This document shows, in pieces, positions 6,216-46,048 of a stretch of 64,000 nt of DNA (within the stretch, counting starts at the first letter, position 1; the number at the start of each line of letters is the position of its first letter). Position numbers and translations under genes: made by a program. Below the pieces are notes generated by a model. That model did no database searches, had not been told where the DNA came from, and worked only from the letters and a program-made list of their open reading frames with translations. The stretch comes from Lichenibacterium ramalinae. GTDB lineage: Bacteria; Pseudomonadota; Alphaproteobacteria; Rhizobiales; Beijerinckiaceae. Location: positions 1 to 64,000 of the forward strand of contig NZ_QYBC01000012.1 in NCBI RefSeq assembly GCF_004137085.1, read 5' to 3'.

Positions 6216-6322
6216 CGGCGCTCTCCGGGCTCGGACCGGGCCGCCGCATCCTGTGGATAACGTCGGCCGATACGGAACGAATAGAGAACGGCCGGGAGGC
6301 CGTCAATCGCCGAATCGGCCCG

Positions 6323-31014: not shown

Positions 31015-31032
31015 CGCCGCCGTCAGGCGGCG
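31015..31032. terminator. Hairpin between convergent genes
   Basis: CGCCGCC (31015-31021), loop GTCA, GGCGGCG (31026-31032). It lies where the isomerase and the DadA-like gene converge and overlaps the stop of the latter, so it could serve as a bidirectional terminator. It lacks T-runs. Confidence 0.4.
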
Positions 31033-32297
31033 TGGCGCACCGCGCCCGTGCCCGCGTGCCCCACCTCCTCGGCGACGAGCTCGGCCGTCGCGGCCGACAG
31101 CGTCCAGCCGAGGTGGCCGTGGCCGGTGTTGTAGAAGACGCCGGGGCGCTTGCCGCGGCCGACGCGCGGCAGCATGTCGGGCAGCATGGGGCGCAGGCCG
31201 GCCCAGGGCACGACCTTGCTGGTGTCGACAGCCGGGAAGAGCTGGCGGGTCCAATCGATCAGCGGCTTCACGCGGTCGGCCCGGATGTCGCGGTTCTCGC
31301 CGTTGAACTCGGCCGTGCCGGCCACGCGGAACCGATCCTGGCCGAGGCGGCTCGACACGATCTTGGTCTCGTCGTCGAGCAGGCTCACCCAGGGGGCGGC
31401 GCGGCGGCTCTCGCCCTGCAGGTCGACCGTGATGGAATAGCCCTTCACGGGATAGATGTTGACCCGGTCGCCGAGGCCCTGGGCCAGCTTGCGGCTGGCG
31501 AGGCCGGCACAGATCACGACGCCGTCGACCGGCATGGACTCGGGCGCGCCGGGCGCCGTGCCATGCATGTGGGCCGGGGACCAGCGCACCGCGTAGCCCT
31601 CGGCCGCGTCGCCGGCGGCGGAGGGCTCCACCGCCGTCACGTCGGCATCGTAGACGAACTTGGCGCCGCGCCGCAGGCAGGCCGCCGCGAGGCCGCGGGT
31701 GAAGCGGTGGATGTCGCCGGTCGAGTCGGATTCGGTGAAGAAGCCGCCGTGATAGGTGCCGTGCAGGGCCGGCTCGATCGCCTTCATCTCGGCCGGCGTG
31801 ACGCTGCGGCGGTCGAGGCCGCCCTGGCGCAGCAGCCCGTTGACGTGGGCGGCGTGGTCGTAGCCGGCCTTGTTGCGGTAGACGTGCAGGATGCCGCGCC
31901 GCTCGAGGTCGAAGTCGATGGTCTCGCGCCCCGCGATCTCGAACAGGCGCTGGCGGGCCGCGATGGCGAGCTTGGTGGTGGCGACCGTGTTGGCCTCGTA
32001 ACGCGGGATGTTGGCGACGAATTCGGCCAGCCAGGAATATTTGTGCCAGGAGGGGCGGAGGTTGAGGCTGAGCGGCGCGTCGCGCTTCGCCAGCCACTTC
32101 AGGCCCTTGAACACCGTCGGCCAGGAGTTCCACACTTCGGCATTGCTGGCGGAAAGCTGGCCGCCGTTGGCGAAGGAGGTTTCCATGGCGGCATAGCGCT
32201 GCCGGTCGAAGACCGTCACGGCGAAGCCGCGGTCGAGCAGCGAATAGGCGGTGGTGATGCCGGTGATGCCGGCGCCGATGACGGCGATGTGATGCAT
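31023..32297 (-). CDS. Glycine/D-amino acid dehydrogenase, DadA-like FAD oxidoreductase
   Basis: A 424-residue FAD-dependent amine oxidoreductase of the DAO family, closest in layout to DadA (D-amino acid dehydrogenase small subunit). The Rossmann motif VIGAGITGITTAYSL is at 5-19, followed by SFANGGQLSASNAEVW, a DadA hallmark, and the C-terminal FAD contact NTGHGHLGWTLSAATAEL. The enzyme deaminates D-amino acids or glycine, feeding electrons to the respiratory chain. Start is ATG 32297 with GAGGTG upstream. The tandem glycine riboswitch ahead of it strongly suggests induction by glycine and hence a role in glycine disposal. Confidence 0.9.
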   Translation of the reverse strand: MHHIAVIGAGITGITTAYSLLDRGFAVTVFDRQRYAAMETSFANGGQLSASNAEVWNSWPTVFKGLKWLAKRDAPLSLNLRPSWHKYSWLAEFVANIPRYEANTVATTKLAIAARQRLFEIAGRETIDFDLERRGILHVYRNKAGYDHAAHVNGLLRQGGLDRRSVTPAEMKAIEPALHGTYHGGFFTESDSTGDIHRFTRGLAAACLRRGAKFVYDADVTAVEPSAAGDAAEGYAVRWSPAHMHGTAPGAPESMPVDGVVICAGLASRKLAQGLGDRVNIYPVKGYSITVDLQGESRRAAPWVSLLDDETKIVSSRLGQDRFRVAGTAEFNGENRDIRADRVKPLIDWTRQLFPAVDTSKVVPWAGLRPMLPDMLPRVGRGKRPGVFYNTGHGHLGWTLSAATAELVAEEVGHAGTGAVRHAA

Positions 32298-32333
32298 GGG
32301 GTGACACCTCGGGACAGCGTGGCGGTGCAAGAT

Positions 32334-32356
32334 CCGAGCCGCAGTGCGGCCCTCGG
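32334..32356 (-). promoter_or_regulatory. Hairpin between glycine riboswitch and DadA-like gene
   Basis: CCGAG/CTCGG outer stem (32334-32338 with 32352-32356) and CCGC/GCGG inner stem with a two-base bulge, directly downstream of the second aptamer and 24 bp before the ribosome-binding site. It is a candidate expression-platform element; no T-run follows. Confidence 0.35.
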
Positions 32357-32360
32357 TCCT

Positions 32361-32558
32361 GACCCCTCTCTGTCACGGGTACCTGAGAGATTGCCCACCC
32401 GGATTCCCGGACGGCTTCCCCTTCGGCGGGCACGATAGGACGGACCCCGTGCCTCTCTCCAGAGTGCTCTCGCGCCGTGGTCCTTTTGCCTGAGAGTTTC
32501 CGGGGCGGTTGCTCCGTCGGCGCCCCGAATCCGTCACCGGTCCGAGGTCTCTCCCGCA
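32361..32558 (-). ncRNA. Tandem glycine riboswitch
   Basis: Read on the minus strand, two glycine aptamers occur in series. Aptamer 1 (about 32478-32558) opens with GCGGGAGAGACC and closes with CTCTCAGGCAAAAGGACC; aptamer 2 (about 32361-32462) opens with CTGGAGAGAGGC, contains GCCGAAGGGG, and closes with AATCTCTCAGG then a GACAGAGAGG stretch. The paired GGAGAG and CTCTCAGG blocks are the hallmark of this riboswitch. Tandem aptamers normally act as glycine-responsive ON switches for glycine catabolism, consistent with the DadA-like oxidase 64 bp downstream. Confidence 0.93.
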
Positions 32559-32641
32559 GCGCTTGGCGAGCGACGCCACCATGGCAGTTCGCGCGGCGTT
32601 CCGCAACAGAGGCGAGGGCCGGGGCGACCCGATCGGCCGCG

Positions 32642-33514
32642 TCAGCGCCGCCCGGCGCGCTTGCGCAGCCACAGGCTCGCCTCGGGCGCGCCGCCGGCGA
32701 GGGGCAGGTCCGCCACTAGCGTGTCGGCGATGAGGTCCGTCGCGGTGGCGACGTAGCGGCTGGCAAAGACGATCTCGTAGCCGCCCCCGCCCAGCAGCGC
32801 ACCGACGGCGGTCTGCTCGTTGTAGCGGCGCGTTTCCCATGCGTCCGGGTAGCCGAAGGGCAGGAAGATGTCGTGGAAATGCACCAGCACGCCGGCCGGC
32901 AGGCGGGGCAGGACGTCGAGCAGCAGGCGGTCCACCTCGTTGCCCGGCACCACGACGTGGCTGGAATCGACGAAGACGATGTCGCCCGGCGCGAAGGCCG
33001 CGGCGGCCGCGACGTCGGCCTCGCCGAAGGGGCGCTGCGCGTGGCGGACCGGCAGCCCCGCCAAGGGCGCGCGCGGCCGCGGGTCGACGCAGGTCATGGC
33101 GGTCGAAAGGCCGCCGTCGACGATCGCCTGGGCCATGAAGCGGGACGAGTGCCCGCAGCCGATCTCGAGGATGCGGGCCGGCCGGGCCTGGCGCACGAGC
33201 GTGTAGGCGGCGACGGCGTCGAGGCGCGGAAACCATTCCTGGGTGAAACGCGCCGGGCGCTCGCCGACGAGGTCCGGGCTTGCGCGGGCGATGCGGGCGA
33301 TGTCGTAGGCGTAGGTTTCGGCGGCGGCGAGCAGCGCCGCGCAGGACGGCAGGGCCGCGGCGAAGAGCGGCACCAGCGCCGCATAGGCGGCGACCGGGGC
33401 GGCGGCCGGCGGCCGGCCGAAGCCTCGCACGGCGGCGATCGAAACGGGTGAAAGCGAGATCAAGGGGGCACCGCGGGGCAGAGCGATGGCGTCGACGCCA
33501 CCGGGATCGGCCAC
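32642..33514 (-). CDS. Class I SAM-dependent methyltransferase (Methyltransf_24 type)
   Basis: A 290-residue methyltransferase. SAM motif I ILEIGCGHSSRF is at 115-126; acidic strand TCVDPRPR, then DIVFVDSSHVV (motif with Asp and His), and VHFHDIFLPFGYP follow. The Methyltransf_24 group includes cephalosporin-hydroxylase-like and O-methyltransferases used on sugars or polyketides; the substrate is not evident. N-terminal 110 residues are helical. Start GTG 33514. It sits between the riboswitch-controlled oxidase and the DUF299 gene, all leftward, but a shared function is not implied. Confidence 0.78.
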   Translation of the reverse strand: MADPGGVDAIALPRGAPLISLSPVSIAAVRGFGRPPAAAPVAAYAALVPLFAAALPSCAALLAAAETYAYDIARIARASPDLVGERPARFTQEWFPRLDAVAAYTLVRQARPARILEIGCGHSSRFMAQAIVDGGLSTAMTCVDPRPRAPLAGLPVRHAQRPFGEADVAAAAAFAPGDIVFVDSSHVVVPGNEVDRLLLDVLPRLPAGVLVHFHDIFLPFGYPDAWETRRYNEQTAVGALLGGGGYEIVFASRYVATATDLIADTLVADLPLAGGAPEASLWLRKRAGRR

Positions 33515-33600
33515 GACTTAGCCGGATCTCATCCTGCCGACAACGCGCGCCACCGCGGGGCGGCCATGCCGAAGCCGGACCCCGGCGGTGCGGCCGGGCC

Positions 33601-34437
33601 TCAGGCCTGGGTGATGAACTTCATGCGGTGCACCTTGTGCAGGTCGATGATGGCGGCCGCCGTCTCCTCGATGGAGCGACGCGTCACGTCGATCGTGGGC
33701 CACCCGTGCTGGGCGAAGAGCCGCCGCGCGCTGGCGATCTCCTCGGCCACCGCCACGCGGTCGACATAGGGCGTCACGCGGTCGCCGGCGTTGAGCGACA
33801 GCAGGCGGTTCTGGCGGATCTGCACGATGCGCTCGGGCGAGGCCAGCAGCCCGACGACGAGCGGGTTCTTGAGGTTCTCGATGCCGGGCGCCAGGGGCAC
33901 GCCGGGCACCAGCGGGATGTTGGCGGTGCGCACGCCGCGGTTGGCGAGATAGATGCTGGTCGGCGTCTTGGAGGTGCGGCTGACGCCCAGCAGCAGCACG
34001 TCGGCCCCCTCGTAGCCTTCGACCGTCTGCCCGTCGTCGTGCATCATCGTGTAGTTCAGCGCGTCGATGCGCTTGAAGTAATCGGCATTGAGCACGTGCT
34101 GGGCGCCCGGGCGCGGCGTCGAGGCGGTGCCGAGGTAGGAGCCGAACAGCGACACGATCGGCTGCAGCACCGACAGGCAGGGCGAGCCGGATTCGCGGCA
34201 GGCCTCCTCGAGGCGGTGGCTGAGCTCCTGGTCGACGAGCGTGAACAGCACGATGCCGGGGGCGGCCTCGATCTCGGCGATGGCGCGGTCGAGCTGCGCC
34301 CGCGAGCGCACGAGCGGGTAGACGTGCTCGATGGACGACACCTCCTGGTACTGCGCCGCCACGGCGCGGCTCGCCGCGATCAGCGTCTCGCCGGTGGAAT
34401 CCGAGATCAGGTGCAGGTGGAAATAGTGCCGTCCCAT
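33601..34437 (-). CDS. DUF299 pyruvate,phosphate/water dikinase regulatory kinase-phosphorylase
   Basis: A 278-residue DUF299 (RP1/PSRP) protein, a bifunctional ADP-dependent threonine kinase and Pi-dependent phosphorylase that switches PpdK or PpsA off and on. Features: [20 protein letters not shown] at the N-terminus, HDDGQ at 133-137, and P-loop-like [15 protein letters not shown] at 151-165, then [27 protein letters not shown]. Start ATG 34437. In Caulobacter and Rickettsia this gene borders the chromosome origin with hemE on the other side, exactly as here. Confidence 0.93.
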
Positions 34438-34973
34438 GCGGGCGTCCGATCGATGCGTGGTCGAGCCCCTGAGGTAGCACGGTTCACGCCGGGGCGGCCT
34501 CGCCGCCTCGCCGCCCCGCTCCATGGCGCGAACCCGCAGGGCCCGTCCCCCCGGTGTCCTGGCGGCGACGGCTCCTGCAAGTGCATGGCTGTGCTGCCGG
34601 AATCCGCGCCGGAGCCCGTTGTCCCGGCCCCGAGTGCCGTCCTGTGGACGGGGGAGGACGGATCGGGCCCCGCCCGCCGACCCTGTGGATGAGGCCGGAT
34701 TCGACCCACAGCGAGATCCCGGGACAGCCCCGCGGCGGGGCTGCCTGTCGAGAGGGGGGATTGCGGGGACAAGCCGCGGCGCGTTCTGCGTGGAGCCTGG
34801 CCCAAGTCCCTCGTCCCACGGGAGAATCCCGGCCCATCCCGCCTGTGGACGGGGACGGGCTTGACTCCCGATGACGGGGCGCGTCCGTGGGACATGTTGT
34901 GTCCACCCCGGGATGACGGTAATCCGGCCCCCAAGCAGACTCAGCAAATCTAAGATTCTAAAAGGATTCTTTT
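34438..34973. other. Probable chromosome replication origin (oriC)
   Basis: The 536-bp gap between the DUF299 gene and hemE carries no gene. Its placement matches the experimentally mapped origins of Caulobacter crescentus and the hemE-linked origins of Rickettsia and Sinorhizobium. It has three same-strand copies of CCTGTGGAYG (34641-34650, 34682-34691, 34842-34851), of which TGTGGATGA at 34684-34692 differs from a consensus DnaA box (TGTGGATAA) at one base. An inverted relative is at 34702-34711 and GTCCACC at 34901-34907. Seven GANTC sites lie at 34600, 34698, 34824, 34863, 34938, 34954 and 34965. A roughly three-quarters A+T tract (34941-34975) abuts hemE and could be the unwinding element. 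Confidence 0.75.
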
Positions 34974-36041
34974 TTGGAAGATCCGATCCGCCGCTCTCCC
35001 GCCGGGGTCGTCGCCCCGGTGCAGCCGTCCCTCTTCCTCCGGGTGCTGGACGGCGAGGTCGCGGCGAAGCCGCCGGTCTGGCTGATGCGCCAGGCGGGCC
35101 GCTACCTGCCCGAATACCGGGAGCTGCGCGCCACCACCCCGACCTTTCTCGACCTGTGCTACAACCCGAAGCTCGCCGCCGAGGTGACGCTGCAGCCGAT
35201 CCGCCGCTTCGGCTTCGACGCCGCCATCCTGTTCTCCGACATCCTCGTCGTCCCCGACGCCCTGGGGCTGCCCACCAGCTTCGAGACCGGCCACGGCCCG
35301 AAGCTGCAGCCGGTCACGACCGCCGAAGGCTTCGCGGCGCTGCACGAGGCGGTCGACATGGAGCGGCTCGCGCCCGTGCTGGAGACCGTCGAGCGGGTTC
35401 GCGGCAGCCTACCGGCCGAGACCGCCCTGATCGGCTTCTGCGGGGCTCCCTTCACGGTGGCGAGCTACATGGTGGCGGGGGCGGGCACGCCCGACCAGGG
35501 GCCGGCCCGCGCCCTGGCCTACCGCGACCCGGACCTCTTCGCCCGCCTCATCGCGCGCGTGACAGACGCGTCCGTCACCTACCTGTCGGCCCAGCTCGCG
35601 GCCGGTGCCGATGCCGTGATGATCTTCGACAGCTGGGCCGGCGTCCTGCCGCGGCTCGAATACGAGCGCTGGTCGCAGGAGCCCCTCGCCCGGATCGTGT
35701 CCGGGGTGCGGGCTCGCCATCCGGGGGCGCGGATCATCGGCTTCCCGCGCGTGTCGGGGGGACAGCTGCTGCGCGCCGCCACCACGGGCGTCACGGCGCT
35801 GGGCCTCGACATCGCGGTCGACCCCCACTGGGCCGACGGCGCGCTGCCGGCGGGCCTGCCGCTGCAGGGTAACCTCGACCCCAAGGCGCTGATCGCGGGG
35901 GGCCGGGCCCTCGACGACGGGGTGGACGACATCCGGTCTGCCCTGGCGCGGCGCCCGCACGTCTTCAACCTCGGCCACGGCATCACGCCCGACACGCCGA
36001 TCCCGCATGTCGAGCGGTTGGTGGCCCGGCTGCGCGCCTGA
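34974..36041 (+). CDS. hemE: Uroporphyrinogen decarboxylase
   Basis: HemE decarboxylates uroporphyrinogen III to coproporphyrinogen III in heme synthesis. The 355-residue product has the signature [17 protein letters not shown] (34-50), the [12 protein letters not shown] loop with catalytic Asp, [23 protein letters not shown] and the C-terminal GNLDPKAL and FNLGHGI motifs. The start is TTG 34974 with AAAGGA seven bases upstream, placing the start codon at the edge of the A+T-rich part of the putative origin; GTG 35019 is an alternative. hemJ follows after 55 bp. Confidence 0.96.
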
Positions 36042-36096
36042 CCCGGCGACGCCGGCCCGACATCATGCCGTCGCATCCCTCAGACAGGACAGCTCC

Positions 36097-36528
36097 ATGC
36101 AGGACTCCATCCTCTGGCTCAAGGCCGCCCATATCCTGTCGATCATCGCCTGGATGGTCGGCATGCTCTACCTGCCCCGCCTCATGGTCTACCACGCGAG
36201 TGTCGGGGCGGGCACGCCGCAGTCCGAAACCTTCAAGGTCATGGAACGGCGCCTGCTCCGGGGCATCGTCACGCCGGCGCTGGTCGCGGTCTGGATCACC
36301 GGCCCGTGGCTGGCCTATGCCGAGGGCGCGTTCCGGGAGCATTGGCTGCACGGCAAGCTGCTGCTCGTGGTGCTGCTGACCGGCGTGCACGGCATTCTGG
36401 CCGCCAACGTCCGCCGCTTCGCCGGCGACGCCAACACCAAGTCGCCCACCTACTTCCGCATCGTCAACGAGATCCCGACGGTGCTGCTGATCGGCATCGT
36501 CATCCTGGTGGTGGTGAAGCCCTTCTGA
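36097..36528 (+). CDS. hemJ: Protoporphyrinogen IX oxidase HemJ
   Basis: HemJ is a small membrane heme-binding oxidase converting protoporphyrinogen IX to protoporphyrin IX in bacteria lacking HemG/HemY. The 143-residue product has four membrane spans and the family-conserved KAAHILSIIAWMVGMLYLPRLMVYH (read as two adjoining blocks), with histidines 12 and 33, plus WLHGKLLLVVLLTGVHG and the RIVNEIPTVLLIGIVILVVVKPF end. Adjacent to hemE, a common alphaproteobacterial arrangement, forming a heme module by the origin. Confidence 0.93.
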   Translation: MQDSILWLKAAHILSIIAWMVGMLYLPRLMVYHASVGAGTPQSETFKVMERRLLRGIVTPALVAVWITGPWLAYAEGAFREHWLHGKLLLVVLLTGVHGILAANVRRFAGDANTKSPTYFRIVNEIPTVLLIGIVILVVVKPF

Positions 36529-36687
36529 TCGGGGCTGCCCCCGGCCGGCCTCGGCGGGGGCGGCGGTCCCGGCCTTCACCATTTCACCTCGTGGTGGTGC
36601 GATTTCCGAGCCTCGGCGCGCCATATTCGGATAGAAGGCGGCCACCGCTCCGGGCAGGCCGGCGGGTGCTCGGGCAAAGGGACGGTC

Positions 36688-37626
36688 TTGAAACGCTACC
36701 TGAACTACCTGTGGCCGGTGATCGGGATCGGTGCCGTCGTCCTGTCGCTGTGGCTGTTGTTCCGGGAACTGCGGGGCCTGTCGTTCGCCGAGGTCGAAGC
36801 CGCCTTCGCCGCCATCCCGGCCGGTCGCTGGGCCCTCGCCGTGCTGGCGACGCTGGTGGCCTACCTGGCGCTCGCCTGGTACGACCGGATCGCGCTGCTC
36901 CACCTCGGCTTCGCGCTGTCCTGGCGTTTCATCTCGGCGGTGTCCTTCACCACCTACGCGCTCAGCCACAACATCGGCATGTCGATGTTCTCGGGCGCCA
37001 TGGTGCGCTACCGCGCCTATTCCACCAAAGGCCTCACCATCGGCGACGTCGGCGTGCTGGTGGCCTTCTGCTCCTTCACCTTCGCGCTCGGCACCATCCT
37101 GCTCGGCGGCATCGTGCTGGCGTTCGAGCCCGAGATCGTGCAGCGCCTGTTCCAGGTCGATCCGCTGGTGGCGCGCCTCGTCGGTGGCGCCATGCTGCTG
37201 TTCGTGGCGCTCTACGTCGGGGGCGCGGCCCTGCACTTCCGGCCGCTGGTCGTCGGCAGCTTCACCGTCATCTACCCGCGCCTGCCCATCGCGATGCGCC
37301 AGCTCCTGGCGGGGCCGCTCGAGCTCATGGGCGCCGCCGGCATCATCTGGTGTGCCCTCCCCGCCGACCACAACCCGGGCTTCTTCATCGTGCTCGGCGT
37401 GTTCCTCGCCTCCTTCTCGGCGGCGCTGCTGAGCCACGCGCCGGGCGGCCTCGGCGTGCTGGAACTCGTCTTCGTCAACGCCCTGCCCGACACGCCCCGC
37501 GCCGACGTGCTGGCGGCGCTGCTCGTGTTCCGCCTGCTCTATCTCGTCATCCCGCTGCTGCTCGGCATCGTCGCCGTCGTGGTGTTCGAGCGGAGCCGCA
37601 TCCTGCGCCGTCCGGCGCTCGATTGA
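36688..37626 (+). CDS. YbhN/UPF0104-type integral membrane protein (LPG synthase TM-like)
   Basis: A 312-residue membrane protein with about seven to eight spans, belonging to the family that includes YbhN and the flippase domain of lysylphosphatidylglycerol synthase. Family signs are LAWYDRIALLHLG, SFTTYALSHNIGMSMFSGAMVRYRAYSTKGL and ALLSHAPGGLGVLELVFV. The soluble aminoacyl-transferase domain of MprF is absent, so direct lipid aminoacylation is not expected. Start TTG 36688 with AAAGGGA upstream. Followed 33 bp later by an AI-2E family protein. Confidence 0.88.
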   Translation: MKRYLNYLWPVIGIGAVVLSLWLLFRELRGLSFAEVEAAFAAIPAGRWALAVLATLVAYLALAWYDRIALLHLGFALSWRFISAVSFTTYALSHNIGMSMFSGAMVRYRAYSTKGLTIGDVGVLVAFCSFTFALGTILLGGIVLAFEPEIVQRLFQVDPLVARLVGGAMLLFVALYVGGAALHFRPLVVGSFTVIYPRLPIAMRQLLAGPLELMGAAGIIWCALPADHNPGFFIVLGVFLASFSAALLSHAPGGLGVLELVFVNALPDTPRADVLAALLVFRLLYLVIPLLLGIVAVVVFERSRILRRPALD

Positions 37627-37659
37627 ACCGGCCGGCCGCGGCCGGTGGAGACCCCCTCG

Positions 37660-38736
37660 ATGAACGTCCCCGTCCCGCCGCCCGGCGCCTCCGACCTCGA
37701 ATGGCAGCGCCGCCGGGCCCTCGCGGCCGAGCGGACGGCGCGCATCCTCGCCTGGGGCCTCGGCCTCGCCATCGCGGTCGGCGTCTGCTGGGCCATGGCC
37801 GACATCGTGCTCCTGGTCTTCGCGGCGGCGCTGCTCGCCTGCCTGCTGCGCGGCGGCGCCGAGTTCCTGTCGCGGCGGGTCGGTGGCCCGATCGGCCTGT
37901 GGCTCGCCGCCATCGTGCTGGCGCTGGTGGCCTTCCTGGGCTTCGAGATCTTCGTGCGCGGCCCCGTCATCGCCGGGCAGCTCACCGACATCTGGGGCCA
38001 GCTGCGGGGGCAGGCGACGGCGCTCTGGGAGCGTTACGGCAGTGCCGACTGGCTGCAGCCGGTGCTGGGCCGCGCCAAGGACTATTTCCAGGACGGCACC
38101 CACAAGATCGCCGGCATGGCGGCCGGCGTCGGCACCTCGACGCTGGGCGGCCTCGGCAGCCTGCTCGTCATGGTGGTCACCGCCATCTTCTTCGCCATCG
38201 ACCCCGGCCTCTATGTCGGGGGAACCGCCAAGCTGATGCCCAAGGACTGGCGCGCCCACGCGGTCGACACGATGGGCGGGATCGCCCACGTGCTGCGCTG
38301 GTGGTTCATCGGCCAGTTCCTCGACATGTGCGCGGTCGGCATTCTGACGGCGATCGGCCTCTACGTCATCGGCGTCAAGCTGGCCTTCACGCTGGCGCTG
38401 ATCGCGGCCCTGTTCAACTTCGTGCCCTATATCGGCGCCCTGGCCGGGGCCGTGCCGGCCGTGCTGATCGCCCTCGGCCAGGGACCGCAGACGGCGCTCT
38501 ACACCGCCATCCTCTTCTTCGTCGTGCAGACGCTCGAGGGCAACCTCATCGCGCCCCTCATCCAGAAGCGCACCGTCGAACTCGCCCCGGTGCTCACCAT
38601 CCTGTCGCAGACGGTGCTCGGCACGCTGTTCGGCCCGCTCGGCCTCATCCTGGCCACGCCCGTGACGGCGGCCGGCGTGGAACTCGTCAAGAAGGTCTGG
38701 GTGGAGGAGGTCCTCGACGACACGCTCGACGGCTGA
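37660..38736 (+). CDS. AI-2E family (PerM/YhhT-like) membrane transporter
   Basis: A 358-residue AI-2E family protein. Seven or eight membrane segments, with two N-terminal spans (about 26-70), a large loop containing an amphipathic region (IWGQLRGQATALWERYG), and a conserved C-terminal half: RWWFIGQFLDMCAVGILTAIG, FNFVPYIGALAGAVPAVLIAL, QTLEGNLIAPLIQKRTVELAP and FGPLGLILATPVTA. The family exports quorum signals in E. coli TqsA but includes Na+/H+ antiporters and peptidoglycan-related permeases, so substrate is open. ATG 37660 with GGTGGAG upstream is preferred over GTG 37645. Confidence 0.9.
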   Translation: MNVPVPPPGASDLEWQRRRALAAERTARILAWGLGLAIAVGVCWAMADIVLLVFAAALLACLLRGGAEFLSRRVGGPIGLWLAAIVLALVAFLGFEIFVRGPVIAGQLTDIWGQLRGQATALWERYGSADWLQPVLGRAKDYFQDGTHKIAGMAAGVGTSTLGGLGSLLVMVVTAIFFAIDPGLYVGGTAKLMPKDWRAHAVDTMGGIAHVLRWWFIGQFLDMCAVGILTAIGLYVIGVKLAFTLALIAALFNFVPYIGALAGAVPAVLIALGQGPQTALYTAILFFVVQTLEGNLIAPLIQKRTVELAPVLTILSQTVLGTLFGPLGLILATPVTAAGVELVKKVWVEEVLDDTLDG

Positions 38737-38761
38737 ACGGCTTGCGCCCCGCGACCGTGCG

Positions 38762-38791
38762 GGATATGCGGATGCGAATATCCGCATATCC
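38762..38791. promoter_or_regulatory. Perfect 12-bp inverted repeat, VapBC-type operator
   Basis: GGATATGCGGAT (38762-38773) and ATCCGCATATCC (38780-38791) are exact reverse complements around a 6-base spacer. This A+T-richer palindrome lies 17 bp before the antitoxin start, the expected place for autoregulatory binding by an antitoxin-toxin complex. Confidence 0.7.
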
Positions 38792-38807
38792 GCCAGGGAA
38801 TATCCCC

Positions 38808-39008
38808 GTGCCGCTCTACATCCGCGACGATGCCGTGGCCGGGCTCGCCCGCGCCGTCCAGGCCGCTTCCGGCGCCCGCACCGTGACGGATGCGGTCCGG
38901 GCTGCGCTGGAGCGCGAGCGGGACCGCTTGAAGCAGAGCCTGCCACCCAGCGCCCGCCTCGGCAAGGCCCTGGCCCTGGCCGACGCGATCGGCGCCGACG
39001 CCCCGTGA
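38808..39008 (+). CDS. VapB-type antitoxin (Rv0623-like)
   Basis: A 66-residue antitoxin. VPLYIRDDAVAGLARAVQ followed by RTVTDAVRAALERERDRL matches the Rv0623-like VapB family, which starts with a short strand and a ribbon-helix-type DNA-binding unit; the C-terminal part (SARLGKALALADAIGADAP) is the toxin-binding tail. GTG 38808 is chosen because AGGGA lies ten bases upstream and known homologues begin at this strand. A perfect palindrome lies just upstream. The stop overlaps the toxin ATG. Confidence 0.75.
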   Translation: MPLYIRDDAVAGLARAVQAASGARTVTDAVRAALERERDRLKQSLPPSARLGKALALADAIGADAP

Positions 39009-39373
39009 TGCTCGACGCTTCCGCCATCGTCGCCATCCTGGCGCGGTGGCCGGGGTCGGACGCGCTGCTGGCGCGGCTCGACGCGCATGGCGGGCCGTTC
39101 CTGGCCACGCCCGTGGCGCTGCTCGATGCCGTGGCGGGGCTCGCCCGCGCCAAGGCGGGTGCCGGAACCGTCACGCCCGCGCTGCTCGGCGCGGCGCGCG
39201 ACGCCGTAGCGGAGTTCGCCGCCGCGCTGCCCTCGCGGGAGGTGCCGGTCTCGGCCGACCTCGGGCGCCGCGCCGCGGACCTGCTCGCGGCCGAGGGCGG
39301 CGACGCCGGACGGGCCCTCAGCCGGGCGGCGGCGCGGGCCTATCGCGTGCCGGTGCTGGAGCACGCGGGGTGA
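39008..39373 (+). CDS. VapC-like PIN-domain toxin, probably degenerate
   Basis: A 121-residue PIN-domain-like protein, ATG overlapping the antitoxin stop. The first catalytic Asp is present in MLDASAIVAIL, and the second acidic position (normally Glu in the LETALVIE-type helix) appears as Asp in LLDAVAGLARAK. The third acidic site, in the G-D-C-F-x-Y motif of active Rv0624-type toxins, is not preserved (GRALSRAAARAYRVPVL), and the C-terminal G-x-D-F-x-x-T-D end is missing because the protein stops at EHAG. Ribonuclease activity is therefore doubtful. Confidence 0.65.
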   Translation: MLDASAIVAILARWPGSDALLARLDAHGGPFLATPVALLDAVAGLARAKAGAGTVTPALLGAARDAVAEFAAALPSREVPVSADLGRRAADLLAAEGGDAGRALSRAAARAYRVPVLEHAG

Positions 39374-39422
39374 TGCGGGCGTGGGCGGATCGGGCTATGC
39401 TGGGACCTCGTGGAGATCTCCG

Positions 39423-41079
<1,657 letters not shown>

Positions 41080-41092
41080 GCCGACCCGCCCT

Positions 41093-41207
41093 CCTCCTCC
41101 CCGCGACGGGAGGAGGTGCCGACAGGCGGACGAGGGGACCCGACGCCTGTCGGACATCCCCTTCTCCGACTGCGATGGGCCACCTTCTCCCACGTGAGGG
41201 GAGAAGG
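41093..41207. repeat. Mosaic of three perfect hairpins (RIME-like intergenic element)
   Basis: Between ilvC and pdxY lie three exact inverted repeats in a row: CCTCCTCCC/GGGAGGAGG (41093-41101 with 41108-41116), CCGACAGGCG/CGCCTGTCGG (41119-41128 with 41144-41153) and CCTTCTCCC/GGGAGAAGG (41183-41191 with 41199-41207). The Pyr-rich and Pur-rich arms around a short CG-rich loop resemble the palindromic intergenic mosaic elements of Rhizobiales. It may also end ilvC transcription. Confidence 0.7.
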
Positions 41208-41224
41208 GCGAACCGGGACCGCCC

Positions 41225-42073
41225 ATGAACATCCTGTCCATCCAGTCCCACGTCGCCTACGGGCATGTCGGCAACGCCGCCGCCACCTTCCCCATCCAGC
41301 GGATGGGGCACGACGTGTGGCCCATCCACACGGTGCAGTTCTCCAACCACACCGGCTACGGTGCCTGGCGCGGACAGGTCTTCGACGCGGGGCTGATCGG
41401 CGACTGCGTGGCGGGCATCGCGGAGCGCGGCGCCCTCGCCCGGTGCGACGGGGTGCTGTCGGGCTACATGGGCTCGGCCGACACCGGCATCGCTATCCTC
41501 GACGCCGTGGCGCGGGTGCGCGAAGCCCATGCCGGCGCGCTCTATTGCTGCGATCCCGTCATCGGCGACGTCGGCCGCGGCGTGTTCGTGCGCCCCGGCA
41601 TCGCCGAGTTCATGCGCGACCGCGCCCTGCCGGCCGCCGACGTCGTCACCCCCAACCAGTTCGAACTCGAACTCCTCTGCGGCCAGGGGACGGGGACGCA
41701 AGCGGGCCTGCGCGCCGGCTTGGCGGCGCTGCATGCCAAGGGTCCCCGCGCCGTGCTGGTCACCTCCTACCTCGGCGACGCGACGCCCGACGACGCGCTC
41801 GACCTCGTCGCCTCGGACGGCAGCCGGGCGTGGCGCATCCGCACGCCGAAGCTGGCCCTTTCGGTCAACGGCGCCGGCGACGCCATCGCGGCCCTGTTCT
41901 TCGTGACCTATCTGGCCCGCCGCTCCGTGCCCGACGCGCTGTCGCATGCCGCCTCGGCGGTGTTCGGCCTGCTCTCGGCGACGCTGGAGGCCGGCACGCG
42001 CGAACTCGCGCTCGTGGCGGCCCAGGACGAGTTCGTGCGCCCCTCCCGCGTCTTCACGCCCGAACCGCTCTGA
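41225..42073 (+). CDS. pdxY: Pyridoxal kinase
   Basis: A 282-residue pyridoxal kinase of the PdxY type, which phosphorylates pyridoxal to PLP in the salvage route. [19 protein letters not shown] is the characteristic start, [12 protein letters not shown] follows, VSGYMG-type [29 protein letters not shown] and the anion-hole/catalytic-base motif [13 protein letters not shown] with Asp219. The PLP product serves SerC and other enzymes. Starts at ATG 41225 directly after the hairpin mosaic. Confidence 0.94.
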
Positions 42074-42169
42074 CGGCGCCGCGTGGCGGGGCTTTCTGCC
42101 GGCTCCGGGGAACACCTGCCCGTCGTGGCGATTGTCAGGGCGCATTTCCGGAACTCGAGGAGACCTCCC

Positions 42170-42697
42170 ATGGCCACGCAGGTGACCGACACCAATCCCG
42201 CGTCCCTCAACACGCCCAACGATCTCGGCGACAACGGCCGCCAGGCGGTGGCCGATTCGGTCAACAAGCTCGTCGCCGACGCCTTCGTGCTCTACACCAA
42301 GACCAAGAACTTCCACTGGCACATGACGGGCCCGCACTTCCGGGACTACCACCTGATGCTCGACGAGCAGTCCGAGCAGATCTTCGCCAGCACCGACCCG
42401 CTGGCCGAGCGGGTGCGCAAGCTCGGCAAGCGCACCGTCCATTCCATGGCCGAGATGGTCAAGATCGCCCATCTCGAGGAGAACAATGCCGACTTCATCC
42501 CGCCGCTCGACATGCTCGGCGAGCTGATGTCGGACAACAAGAAGATGGCGGCGGCGATGCGCGAGACCCACAAGGTCTGCGACGAGCACGAGGATGTGGC
42601 GACCGCCAGCCTGCTCGAGAACTACATCGACGAGACCGAGCGCCGCACCTGGTTCCTGTTCGAAGCCATGCAGGGCGCGGACGAGAGCGGCCACTGA
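42170..42697 (+). CDS. dps: Dps family DNA-protecting ferritin-like protein
   Basis: A 175-residue Dps protein, forming dodecamers that store iron and guard DNA under stress. The ferroxidase ligands are in TKTKNFHWHMTGPHFRDYHLMLDEQSE (two blocks; His49/His51, Asp, Glu), and the second and fourth helices follow (KLGKRTVHSMAEMVKIA; LLENYIDETERRTWFLFEA). The N-terminal 20 residues are flexible and could mediate contacts. GAGGAGA lies before the ATG. No OxyR-type site recognised in the 96-bp gap upstream. Confidence 0.93.
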   Translation: MATQVTDTNPASLNTPNDLGDNGRQAVADSVNKLVADAFVLYTKTKNFHWHMTGPHFRDYHLMLDEQSEQIFASTDPLAERVRKLGKRTVHSMAEMVKIAHLEENNADFIPPLDMLGELMSDNKKMAAAMRETHKVCDEHEDVATASLLENYIDETERRTWFLFEAMQGADESGH

Positions 42698-42795
42698 GGC
42701 GCTTGCGCCCGCTGGACGGGGGGCGGGGTCGCCGCCTCCCGCCCCGGGCGACCGGGCGCATGGTGCCGCGCCGCGATCCGGGCTAGTCTCGCGCC

Positions 42796-43674
42796 ATGCG
42801 ACGCCGCTTCCACACCCTCGACGTCTTCACCGACCGGCCGCTGAGCGGCAACCCCCTCGCCGTGGTCCACGACGCGCAGGGGCTCGACGCGGCCCGCATG
42901 CAGGCGGTGGCCCGCGAGTTCAACCTGTCGGAGACGGTCTTCCTGCTGGAGCCGCGGGACCCGGTGAACTCCGCCCGCATCCGCATCTTCACGCCCGCGC
43001 GCGAGCTGCCCTTCGCGGGCCACCCCACGGTGGGGACCGCCGTGTTGCTGGCCGAACTGCGCGCGCCCGAGATCGTGGCCCGCCAGGACCTCGCCCTCGT
43101 CATCGAGGAGGAGGTGGGCCTCGTTCAGTGCACGGCGCGCCGCGCCAGGGGCCGGCCCTATGCCGAGTTTCTCCTGCCGCGGCTGCCCGAGGCCTGCGGC
43201 ACGCCGATGCCCGACGCGGATCTGGCGGCGTCGCTGTCGCTCGATGCGGCCGAGATCGGCTTCGACCGCCACCGTCCGCTGATGCTCACGGCAGGCGTGC
43301 CGTTCACGACGGTGCCGCTGGCCTCGCCCGAGGCGGTCGACCGGGCCAGCCCCGACGCCGGCCGTTGGCCGTCGGATCTCCGCACCTACGTCTACGCGCG
43401 CTCCGGCGCGGGCTTTCACGCCCGCATGTTCGCGGCCGGCCTCGGCATCGCCGAGGACCCCGCGACGGGTTCGGCCGCCGCCGCCTTCGCCGGAGCCGTG
43501 ATGGCCTTCGACGCGCCGCCCGACGGCGAGCATGCGATCGAGATCCGGCAAGGCGTCGCCATGGGCCGGCCCAGCCTCATCGTGCTGGGGCTGGATGTCG
43601 CGGGCGGCGCGCTCGTGGCGGCGACGATCGGCGGCGGCGCCGTGATCGTCTCCGAAGGGACGATCGACCTGTGA
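42796..43674 (+). CDS. PhzF family isomerase-like protein
   Basis: A 292-residue PhzF/diaminopimelate-epimerase-fold protein. Conserved motifs: FTDRPLSGNPLAVV, FNLSETVFLLEP with the catalytic Glu46, ARELPFAGHPTVGTA, and the second-domain EDPATGSAAAAFAG. PhzF isomerises a dihydroanthranilate in phenazine synthesis, but most family members, like this one without phz neighbours, have unknown substrates. Its stop overlaps the GTG start of the NUDIX gene as GTGA, so the pair is translationally coupled. Confidence 0.92.
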   Translation: MRRRFHTLDVFTDRPLSGNPLAVVHDAQGLDAARMQAVAREFNLSETVFLLEPRDPVNSARIRIFTPARELPFAGHPTVGTAVLLAELRAPEIVARQDLALVIEEEVGLVQCTARRARGRPYAEFLLPRLPEACGTPMPDADLAASLSLDAAEIGFDRHRPLMLTAGVPFTTVPLASPEAVDRASPDAGRWPSDLRTYVYARSGAGFHARMFAAGLGIAEDPATGSAAAAFAGAVMAFDAPPDGEHAIEIRQGVAMGRPSLIVLGLDVAGGALVAATIGGGAVIVSEGTIDL

Positions 43675-44405
43675 CGGTGGGTGCGCCCGCCGGCCCGCAG
43701 GAGGTCGTGGAGGTCGACGCCGTCGACTGTGCCTTCGAGCCCCGCCGCTGGGACTTCGCCGAGGCCCGGTCCGCCGAGATCGCCGCCCACTGGGCCGAGG
43801 CCTTGCGACGCAAGCCCCGCATGTTCGACGGCCGGGTGCTGCTGATGCATCGCGGTGCGGTCGAGGTGGAGGCAGATGGCCGGCGCGTGTTCCGCGGCGC
43901 CTATCTCGAGACCAGCTTCAGCGCCTTCCTGTTCTGGCGCGACATCGGCCTGCCGCCCGCCGGGGTGCGCAACGGCTTCGGCATGGCCTGCCTGTCATCG
44001 GCCGATGGCGCCTTCGTGCTCGGCGAGATGGGGCACCACACCGCCAATGCCGGTGCCATCTACTTCGCATCCGGCACGCCCGACCCCGGCGACGTTCGGG
44101 ACGGCCGCGTCGACATCGAGGGCAGCATCCGGCGCGAACTCCGCGAGGAGACGGGGCTCGACGCCGCGACGCTGAGCCTCGATCCCGGACTGACGTTGGT
44201 GATGGATGGCTGCCGCGTCGGCTTCATGAAGCGCGTCCGTTCGGCCGAGACGGCCGAGGCCCTGGTGGCCCGCATCGGTGCTTTCCTGGCGCGTGACCCC
44301 GAGCCGGAGCTCGCCCGCATGCATGTCGTTGCCACCGCGGCCGAGATCGGCCCGGCCGTGCAGGTGTCGGCCGCCACCTATCTCAGGGCCAAGCTGCCCG
44401 CCTGA
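43671..44405 (+). CDS. NUDIX hydrolase-like protein
   Basis: A 244-residue NUDIX protein. The catalytic helix is recognisable as IRRELREETGLD (about 153-164), matching the REUXEEXGU half of the Nudix box; the preceding Gly/Glu half is atypical (RDGRVDIEGS). The N-terminal 100 residues (RVLLMHRGAVEVEADGRRVF, then GAYLETSFSAFLFWRD) are an additional domain seen in some fungal/alphaproteobacterial NUDIX proteins. It probably hydrolyses a nucleoside diphosphate derivative. Start GTG 43671, coupled to the PhzF gene. Confidence 0.8.
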   Translation: MTVGAPAGPQEVVEVDAVDCAFEPRRWDFAEARSAEIAAHWAEALRRKPRMFDGRVLLMHRGAVEVEADGRRVFRGAYLETSFSAFLFWRDIGLPPAGVRNGFGMACLSSADGAFVLGEMGHHTANAGAIYFASGTPDPGDVRDGRVDIEGSIRRELREETGLDAATLSLDPGLTLVMDGCRVGFMKRVRSAETAEALVARIGAFLARDPEPELARMHVVATAAEIGPAVQVSAATYLRAKLPA

Positions 44406-44605
44406 CGAGCGTGGCCGCCGGGGCCGGCGGCGCGGGCCTGCGACGCGCGCCAGATCATCGGCCTCGGTCCAAGCTGCGCCGCGACGACGGCCCGACAGGC
44501 TCGGGCCCGGCCGACAACCATCCCTGCCAGGACCGACATCATGCCGATCTCCGCGCCCGCTGCCCAACCGTCCCGCAGTCCCACCCGCGCCGGAGGGATC
44601 GGCGC

Positions 44606-46015
44606 TTGACGGGCCGGGCGTCGAAACCGGGCCGGAAGGTGCCGAGCCTCGCCATCCTGGGCGGCGGCTTCACCGGCGCCGCGCTGGCGATCCACGCGGC
44701 CAGCGCCGCTCGAGCCCCGCTGGCGATCGACATCGTCGAGCCGGCGGAACGGCTCGGCCGCGGCGCCGCCTACGGCACGGTGGATCCCGTGCATCGCATC
44801 AACGTGCCGTCCCACCGCATGAGCCTCTTCGCCGACGTGCCGGACCACTTCACCCGCTGGCTCTTCGCGCGCGGCGTCCTGCCCGATCCGGCCAGCACGG
44901 ACGGGCGCGGGGACCACTATGTGTCCCGCGCGGCTTTCGGCGCCTATGTGGCGGACAGCCTCGACGGCGCGCTGGCGCAGGCGGGGCCGGAAGTCGTGCT
45001 CCGGCACCGCCGGGCCCGGGCCGTCTCGGTCTCCCGCGACGGCCGGGGCTGGCGCGTGGCGCTCGACGGCGGCGAAAGGCTGGCGGCGGACGCCGTGGCT
45101 CTGTGTACCGGCCATGCCGCGCCGGCCCTGCCCTGCCCGGTCTCGGCGGCGGCCCGGGCCCATCCGGGTTTCGTCGCCGACCCGTGGCGCCCCGACGCCC
45201 TGGTGGCCGTCCACCGGGATGCGGCCGTGCTGGTCGTCGGCACCGGCCTGACGATGCTGGACGTGATCGCTTCGCTCGACCGCATCGGGCACCGCGGCGC
45301 CGTGCTCGCCGTCTCGCGCCATGGCCTGCTGGCGCGGCCACAGGGCGCCTTCCCGGACGGATTCGACCCCTTCGCCGGTGCCCCGGTGCCGCGCACCGCG
45401 CTCGACCTGCTCGCCCTCTTGCGACGCGGCCTGCGCCAGCTGGACCCCGATGTCGGCTGGCAGGAGGTGGTGGACGCCTTCCGCTTCCGCCTGCCGCCGC
45501 TGTGGTCGGCGCTGCCGCCGCGGGAGCAGCGCCGCGTGCAGCGCCGCCTCCTGCCATTCTGGGAGGTCCACCGCTTCCGGGCCGCGCCGCAGCCCTTCGC
45601 CCTGGCGACCGCGTGGCGCGACGGCGGCCGGCTCACGGTGCTGCGGGCGGCCTTGGTCGGCCTCGACGCCGACACTGCTCTCGACGCCGCCCTGGACCGC
45701 CCCGGGACGGGTGTGGAGCGCCGGAGCTTCGACGCCGTCGTTCTGTGCACGGGCCCGGCGAATGCGCTGCGCTCCGACCCGCTGGTGCGGGACGTCGTGG
45801 ACCGAGGCCTGGCGCAGCCGGATGGCGTCGGGCTCGGCCTCGCCGTCGATGGTGAGAGCCAGCTCGTCGACGCTCATGGTCGGGCCGAAGCGCGGTTGCG
45901 GGCCTTCGGGCCGCTGACGCGGGGCAGTTTCGGCGAGATGACCGGCCAGCCCGACATCGTGCGCCACGTCGCCCGTACCGTGCCGGGCCTGCTCGAAGCC
46001 CTGGCGGACGCCTGA
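44606..46015 (+). CDS. FAD/NAD(P)-binding protein (NAD_binding_9-like)
   Basis: A 469-residue flavoprotein-like oxidoreductase. LAILGGGFTGAALAIHAA is the dinucleotide-binding motif (about 15-32), followed by DIVEPAERLGRGAAYGTVDPVHRINVPSHRMSLF (two blocks), typical of FAD-NAD(P)-binding domain proteins (HpaM-like/NAD_binding_9). A second Rossmann VLVVGTGLTMLDVIASL occurs near 211-227. Function unknown. No suitable ATG; TTG 44606 has CGGAGGGA upstream. The TTG overlaps the stop of a 22-codon ATG frame (44541-44609), which might act as a leader. The 200 bp before the TTG show no other feature. Confidence 0.8.
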   Translation: MTGRASKPGRKVPSLAILGGGFTGAALAIHAASAARAPLAIDIVEPAERLGRGAAYGTVDPVHRINVPSHRMSLFADVPDHFTRWLFARGVLPDPASTDGRGDHYVSRAAFGAYVADSLDGALAQAGPEVVLRHRRARAVSVSRDGRGWRVALDGGERLAADAVALCTGHAAPALPCPVSAAARAHPGFVADPWRPDALVAVHRDAAVLVVGTGLTMLDVIASLDRIGHRGAVLAVSRHGLLARPQGAFPDGFDPFAGAPVPRTALDLLALLRRGLRQLDPDVGWQEVVDAFRFRLPPLWSALPPREQRRVQRRLLPFWEVHRFRAAPQPFALATAWRDGGRLTVLRAALVGLDADTALDAALDRPGTGVERRSFDAVVLCTGPANALRSDPLVRDVVDRGLAQPDGVGLGLAVDGESQLVDAHGRAEARLRAFGPLTRGSFGEMTGQPDIVRHVARTVPGLLEALADA

Positions 46016-46048
46016 GCGCCGCCTGTTTCACGTGAGCCAGGGTCCCCG

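Follow-up and report, generated by a model that had tools for sequence, protein, structure and literature searches.

The window, the whole stretch of DNA analyzed here, comprises bases 1-64000 of contig C28 (190,232 bp) from a Lichenibacterium genome of 5.8 Mb in 76 contigs. The closest named relative is Lichenibacterium minor, whose DUF299 is 94% identical (among the 80 loci kept). As the first-pass annotation had described, a gene-free gap of 536 bp separates a DUF299 gene from hemE; profile matches to PF03618 and PF01208 bound it on either side (Table 1). A gap of approximately 300-600 bp between divergent hemE and COG1806/DUF299 genes, as expected of a chromosome origin (oriC) of the hemE/DUF299 type, is therefore present. 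The UPF0093 gene that follows hemE is presumably hemJ. On the other side of the gap, tandem glycine riboswitch aptamers (window 32366-32566, - strand; 60.3 and 40.6 bits) are located upstream of a gene for a DAO-family FAD oxidoreductase (31023-32330).

Table 1. Features of the gap and its surroundings (positions in the window, unless given as contig positions)
Feature	Position	Strand	Remarks
Gap, most likely oriC	34438..34973	.	536 bp; top origin-word window of the 190-kb contig
DUF299 / kinase-pyrophosphorylase gene (COG1806)	33601..34437	-	PF03618, E 4.7e-87; start at 34437
hemE, uroporphyrinogen decarboxylase	34974..36041	+	PF01208, E 2.5e-107; TTG start at 34974
UPF0093 gene	36007..36528	+	near rho in intact relatives, not in the window's genome
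CCTGTGGACG, DnaA-box variant	34641..34650	+	TCCACA core on - strand; family-wide word
CCTGTGGATG	34682..34691	+	overlaps TCATCCACA (34684-34692, -), one base off the consensus DnaA box TTATCCACA
CCTGTGGACG, third box	34842..34851	+	no counterpart at the corresponding alignment position of L. minor or G001
TTGTCCCC, weak DnaA-box-like word	34765..34772	-	inside a block conserved in window, L. minor and G001
Seven GANTC sites	34600..34969	.	starts 34600, 34698, 34824, 34863, 34938, 34954, 34965; those at 34938, 34954 and 34965 in or beside the A+T-rich tract
A+T-rich tract, candidate unwinding element	34939..34973	.	25/35 A+T; also holds the hemE ribosome-binding-like sequence
Block around gap	31023..46015	.	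collinear, apart from small breaks, between the window's genome, G001 and G002; no longer joined to rho-parAB or coaE
parS-like site	46024..46039	.	2 mismatches; in window
parS-like sites outside window	contig 73650, 75734, 82070, 87217		

Three same-strand copies of CCTGTGGAYG had been reported in the gap, and all three are present, spaced 41 and 160 bp apart, with no other copy in the 64-kb window. By chance 0.51 copies are expected in the window, and three were reached in none of 100 shuffles. The DnaA boxes of the gap are variants, without an exact TTATCCACA among them; the middle motif overlaps a word one base removed from this consensus, again in line with the first-pass annotation. The only perfect TTATCCACA of the 190-kb contig is found far from the gap, at window 6252-6260 (- strand). 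Two further blocks in the gap, an imperfect palindrome GGACATGTTGTGTCC (34890-34904) and the GCCTGTCGANAGGGGGGATTG block (34743-34773), are common to the window, L. minor and the congener G001.

The seven GANTC sites, which we take to be targets of CcrM, are likewise confirmed and exceed chance (Poisson P 2.9e-7, for this one gap); the 1.5 sites originally expected for the gap were an overestimate, as 536 bp of the contig outside the gap would contain 0.42 on average. Counted in 540-bp windows, GANTC sites reach their highest number at the gap both in the window's contig (7) and in the G001 stretch analyzed (11). In the G003 stretch other places are richer than the gap (6 vs 5), and the enrichment is therefore not uniform in the genus.

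The A+T-rich tract noted against hemE is real: the 35-mer at 34948 contains 26/35 A+T and ties with one other place as the most A+T-rich of the 190-kb contig. Within this 35-mer falls AAAAGGA (34960-34966), a ribosome-binding-like sequence for hemE. The A+T richness expected of a hemE/DUF299-type oriC is provided by the tract only, the gap as a whole being hardly A+T-rich (G+C 0.705 vs 0.721 for the contig; A+T 29.5% vs 27.9%). Neither CtrA sites (TTAA-N7-TTAA) nor the IHF consensus, also expected of this type, were found in the gap, and the missing IHF consensus counts against its assignment.

Among 111 sequences (the window plus 110 loci, with some duplicates), hemE and DUF299 are divergent within 2.5 kb in 77; the other 34 have no hemE within 2.5 kb in a divergent layout. 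The gap measures 311-587 bp in 76 cases and 1,072 bp in one. After removal of the one gap above 700 bp, of duplicates (69 left) and of near-copies (63 left), TGTGGA, which corresponds to the TCCACA core, was present in 55 of the 63 gaps vs 9.9 expected. The most over-represented words include TGTGGA, TGTGGAC, CTGTGGA, TGTGGAT, TTGTCCACA and TTATCCCC, all of which resemble DnaA boxes in sequence; in other enriched words, such as TCGTTAA and CTGTTGA, this likeness is absent or weak. Because box words are common to the gaps of the family, the core of CCTGTGGAYG is the family's usual box and not a private one. The exact motif is absent from a 200-kb stretch of G002 and occurs once in the G001 gap, which retains a single TGTGGA; box number and spacing are not conserved among relatives. 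The proposal of a lineage-specific DnaA arrangement could thus not be upheld, as the words are family-wide and their number and spacing vary inside the genus.

A word score was trained on 57 DUF299-hemE gaps, all from outside the genus, and applied in 450-bp windows. The gap was the top window of its own 190-kb contig, with a score of 43.7 (next best 22.0; best of 20 shuffles of the contig 23.2), and carries the cluster of DnaA boxes, exceptional for its contig, that is expected of a hemE/DUF299-type oriC. The gap ranked first in all five stretches scored: besides the window's contig, those of G001 (32.8, next best 25.3), G002 (29.4, next best 17.8), G003 (43.6, next best 23.9) and, from another genus, G013 (38.0, next best 31.4). 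The words that weigh most in the score of the gap are DnaA-box variants common across the family.

We also scored 11 of the 34 sequences lacking a divergent nearby hemE, plus locus L096. The top window overlapped the stretch upstream of DUF299 in 12/12, in L012 only weakly ahead of the next (13.7 vs 11.4), and the loci L087, L089 and L090 being 3.8 kb long each. The origin-word signature is therefore independent of hemE, which argues against a plain hemE promoter. We give very little credence to the reading that the gap serves only as a bidirectional promoter and owes its motifs to chance: the conserved end of the gap does carry the hemE start signals and part of the A+T-rich tract is ribosome-binding-like, but the box words are also found in gaps that have lost hemE, and both the shuffles and the GANTC statistics speak against chance. 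In L087, L089 and L090, where hemE is not adjacent, the origin-word stretch is located between DUF299 and rho.

The surroundings of the gap depart from the usual layout. In 41 of the 46 genomes with DUF299 and rho on one contig, the two genes are 1.1-3.4 kb apart, on opposite strands in 40 of the 41. They are farther apart in the remaining five: the window's genome (42.7 kb), G001 (43.6 kb), G002 (117.5 kb), G003 (43.6 kb) and G013 (93.6 kb). Eight of the 54 genomes were set aside because DUF299 and rho fall on different contigs, among them the congeners G004 and G005; the statement on the genus therefore rests on the window's genome and three of five congeners. In the window's genome, parB and rho are found approximately 37 kb and 43 kb from the gap. 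The gene coaE lies approximately 1.5 kb from DUF299 in G013, G014, G019, G023, G024 and G054, at approximately 17 kb in Labrys, 360 kb in G003 and 1.46 Mb in G001, and on another contig in the window's genome; it has scattered while the gap stayed within 118 kb of rho. The neighborhood usual for this type of oriC, with rho-mnmE-mnmG-parAB and coaE in order, is missing from the window's genome, and the distances from rho-parAB and coaE therefore indicate that the DUF299-hemE unit is detached from both.

The window's genome, G001 and G002 share two largely collinear blocks, one including the gap (31-46 kb) and one including rho (70.7-105 kb); the sequence that separates these blocks is for the most part different. 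In the window's genome, the orientation of parB-rho with respect to hemE is the reverse of that in relatives, and in G003 it is the DUF299-hemE unit that is reversed. The dnaA gene is no origin landmark: in nine genomes its distance from DUF299 ranges from approximately 149 kb to 2 Mb, and in the window's genome the two are on different contigs. In G001 we observed ten equal-score weak matches to the DnaA domain (E 5.9e-5) and four at 1.6e-7; as a guess, these copies are perhaps insertion-sequence ATPases, and G001 may be IS-rich.

GC skew gave no support to the gap in the window's genome. The minimum anticipated there by the first-pass annotation did not appear: the cumulative skew of the window peaks at the gap, and that of the first 105 kb of the contig at approximately 80-85 kb, both of the wrong sign for an origin. 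Outward skew on the window's contig, -0.025 to the right of rho and -0.012 to the left of the gap, runs against the polarity reading given below. Between the gap and rho, the skew has the sign of a rho-side origin in three genomes, weakly (+0.0017, +0.0156, +0.0035). In a leave-one-out test, k-mer classifiers assigned 19-23 of 32 stretches correctly; because this test is weak, local skew is taken as unreliable in the window's genome, and neither it nor the classifiers were used as an origin test either way. A GC-skew shift is a supporting sign, not one required of every origin (PMC1914354, excerpt). In twenty 20-kb samples of one 4.24-Mb contig of G014, skew was negative in all 9 stretches to one side of the gap, and 10 of the 11 stretches to the other side had positive skew. 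The corresponding counts in G003 were 8/8 and 9/12, and in G001 the sampled skew did not clearly change sign at the gap (-0.0041 and -0.0006).

Polarity motifs served better than skew: among 32 arm stretches of G001, the octamer with the strongest polarity was GGGCAGGG (76 vs 14, z 6.5; z at most 4.2 in four null arm assignments). We use the name KOPS for these polar motifs, which, with GGGNAGGG, we take to be those of FtsK. Weights were derived from G001 stretches located over 200 kb away from the origin region of that genome and applied to five genomes, G001 included. On the window's contig the polarity switches at 79,478 (2-LL interval 78,257-80,311), outside the window, at a point 44-46 kb from the gap and a short distance upstream of rho (77,161-78,411). 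The switch is also 1-3 kb upstream of rho in G001 (2,411,013-2,413,153; rho 2,414,119-2,415,369; a 7.5-kb stretch of this region reads N) and G002 (277,345-279,617; rho 275,271-276,521), in the latter 119-122 kb from the gap. In G003 it appeared near the gap at coarse sampling, and finer mapping placed it at parB (1,301,832-1,308,886), 34-41 kb away. In G013, whose gap is at 1,151 kb and parB at 1,242 kb, the switch falls at 1,237,472-1,281,248. Placement of the switch at the gap was rejected in all five genomes, 0/5000 simulations each reaching the observed likelihood difference, with the reservation that neighboring KOPS events are not fully independent. A skew shift or KOPS switch at the gap, looked for as a mark of oriC, is absent from the window's genome and present in G014. 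The sense of GGGNAGGG around the gap was 2/11 vs 17/2 in G014, 0/22 vs 23/9 in G003 and 26/53 vs 24/11 in G001 (sampled).

Only five parS-like sites (up to 2 mismatches) were found in the window's genome, all on the window's contig, and the parS consensus palindrome had no match within one mismatch in that genome. Copies such as CGTTTCACGTGAAACC and CGTTTCACGGGAAACA occur at the four contig positions outside the window and in G001 (2373343-2419145), and G003 keeps two perfect parS copies. From these sequences, the parS-like sites appear to have changed in the genus.

These data raise the alternative of a working origin beside rho (contig 78.3-80.3 kb), the gap being a retired origin kept for hemE/DUF299 regulation. 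The KOPS switch at 79.5 kb, like those upstream of rho in G001 and G002, fits such an origin, as do four of the five parS-like sites (73.7-87.2 kb), the weak skew between gap and rho, and the direction of parAB-rho, which would be co-directional with it; their head-on orientation to forks from the gap counts against an origin at the gap. Moreover, KOPS polarity from gap to rho is as strong as that of the G001 arms (GGGNAGGG 72/90 and 130/160). Species-unique sites, present in one of the window's genome, G001 and G002 at alignable places (for the outgroup some are retained, not new), follow the rho-centered sense, 11:4 for GGGNAGGG and 23:7 for GGGCAGG (6:3, 9:2, 8:2). The excess is larger than expected of an old pattern in decay, and it is the strongest point for an origin beside rho. 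We nevertheless consider it unlikely. Near rho the best origin-word scores in three genomes were 5.8, 8.1 and 5.1, vs 43.7, 32.8 and 29.4 for the gaps, and no TTATCCACA within one mismatch was found between 34.7 and 106 kb of the window's contig; the gap retains its boxes and GANTC cluster, and a new or duplicated origin would be needed. A hidden second origin beside rho was discarded for the same lack of origin words there. Gene-direction bias was also rejected as the cause of the KOPS pattern, since the gap-to-rho sites comprise 4 on the coding strand, 6 on the template strand and 5 in no conserved ORF.

For the intact layout, we pooled the 66 loci, out of the 78 numbered L003-L080, in which rho and DUF299 are no more than 6 kb apart. 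Within 10 kb of the gap, the counts of GGGNAGGG by sense were 38/77 towards hemE-rho and 44/26 towards DUF299. Towards rho they were 11/9 within 2 kb, 5/38 at 4-6 kb and neutral at 6-8 and 8-10 kb (5/4, 7/5); towards DUF299, those at 4-6 kb were reversed (4/9). Most of the signal comes from the 4-6 kb bin on the rho side and the bin next to it. Sites in conserved genes are not independent between loci, making these counts suggestive only. The switch of the intact layout seems to be at or near the gap, suggesting that the polarity axis usually accompanies the origin area, albeit in a patchy manner. As the pooled sense changes near the gap, we set aside the view that KOPS follows parS in every case and not the origin area, with the same suggestive weight.

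Taken together, the gap is probably oriC, a displaced variant of the known hemE/DUF299 type. Of the origin call made in the first-pass annotation, the gene pair, the gap and the box words stand, all matching a hemE/COG1806 origin, with a skew and KOPS change at this place in G014; the expected skew minimum does not stand for the window's genome. By analogy with related origins, DnaA would bind the TCCACA-core boxes and weaker neighbors in the gap, the A+T-rich tract beside hemE would open and the helicase be loaded there, and the GANTC cluster may make the gap sensitive to CcrM methylation. Comparison of layouts shows that in the ancestry of the genus the unit DUF299-gap-hemE-hemJ became detached from rho-mnmE-mnmG-rsmG-parAB and coaE, one on each side. 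In the window's genome and three congeners, the unit is today separated from rho by 43-118 kb and lies to the side of parAB. The KOPS switch has kept its place next to rho (closer to parB in G003), and in the window's genome four of the five parS-like sites surround it. Forks would then set out from within a region that, by its KOPS polarity, belongs to a single arm. We favor this explanation, in which oriC moved with the unit and the polarity axis was left behind, over a rho-side origin without recognizable DnaA boxes.

With the gap still as oriC, the origin may instead have stayed put, the approximately 42 kb from the UPF0093 gene to rho having recently inverted and turned its KOPS sites. 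An inversion with these ends would give the same KOPS picture, and rho and parAB are indeed turned round relative to hemE in the window's genome; we regard it as quite unlikely, as the separation also occurs in G001, G002 and, with the unit turned round, G003, at hemE identities of 66-85%, species-unique sites keep their rho-centered sense (23 to 7), and G013 offers a further case. Returning to the displaced oriC, it is conceivable, and we propose tentatively, that in Lichenibacterium and independently in G013 the origin is approximately 40-120 kb from a KOPS axis that is actively kept beside rho, most parS-like sites of the window's genome being separated as well.

Origin, centromere and arm polarity normally sit together, and it is then hard to ask which of them sets the others. 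Here, box sequences and polarity motifs disagree by approximately 34-120 kb in four genomes of one genus and one of another, natural counterparts of a constructed Caulobacter inversion. If the separation is true, KOPS orientation in the origin region would not be set by the fork start site. It also warns that origin calls based on skew or KOPS and those based on genes can differ by tens of kilobases. Among the matches listed (titles and opening abstract lines), there was no published report of an origin in Lichenibacterium or of a natural origin-KOPS separation.

According to the first-pass annotation, the Sinorhizobium origin adjoins hemE. In Caulobacter, Cori lies between hemE and COG1806 (DUF299), and the Rickettsia origin between the same pair (PMC1914354, excerpt), as that annotation had also stated. 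Cori of Caulobacter crescentus shares with the gap its flanking genes, an A+T-rich tract of approximately 40 bp and weak, non-consensus DnaA boxes (PMC1914354, PMC4468827, excerpts); strengthening mutations in the Caulobacter boxes can decrease replication (PMC4468827, excerpt). Unlike Cori, the gap has no TTAA-N7-TTAA CtrA site or IHF consensus and rho is not adjacent to it; its A+T content is hardly raised, whereas Cori has 43.6% A+T vs 32.8% for the genome (PMC1914354, excerpt), and parB is approximately 37 kb away, whereas parS is within 8 kb of Cori (PMC4468827, excerpt). The predicted Wolbachia, Ehrlichia and Anaplasma origins also kept hemE after rearrangement (PMC1914354, excerpt), but there the DUF299 side was replaced, whereas the unit of the window kept both genes and left rho-parAB and coaE. 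In Hyphomonas neptunium the marker-frequency maximum is likewise close to hemE, where GC skew, dnaA and DnaA sites had not clearly pointed to an origin, and parAB is approximately 7 kb from hemE, unlike here (PMC6650430, excerpt). A parallel to the separation itself is Caulobacter Flip 1-5, in which a laboratory inversion moved parS approximately 400 kb from ori (PMC5815017, excerpt); that strain was constructed, whereas the Lichenibacterium separation is natural and found in several species.
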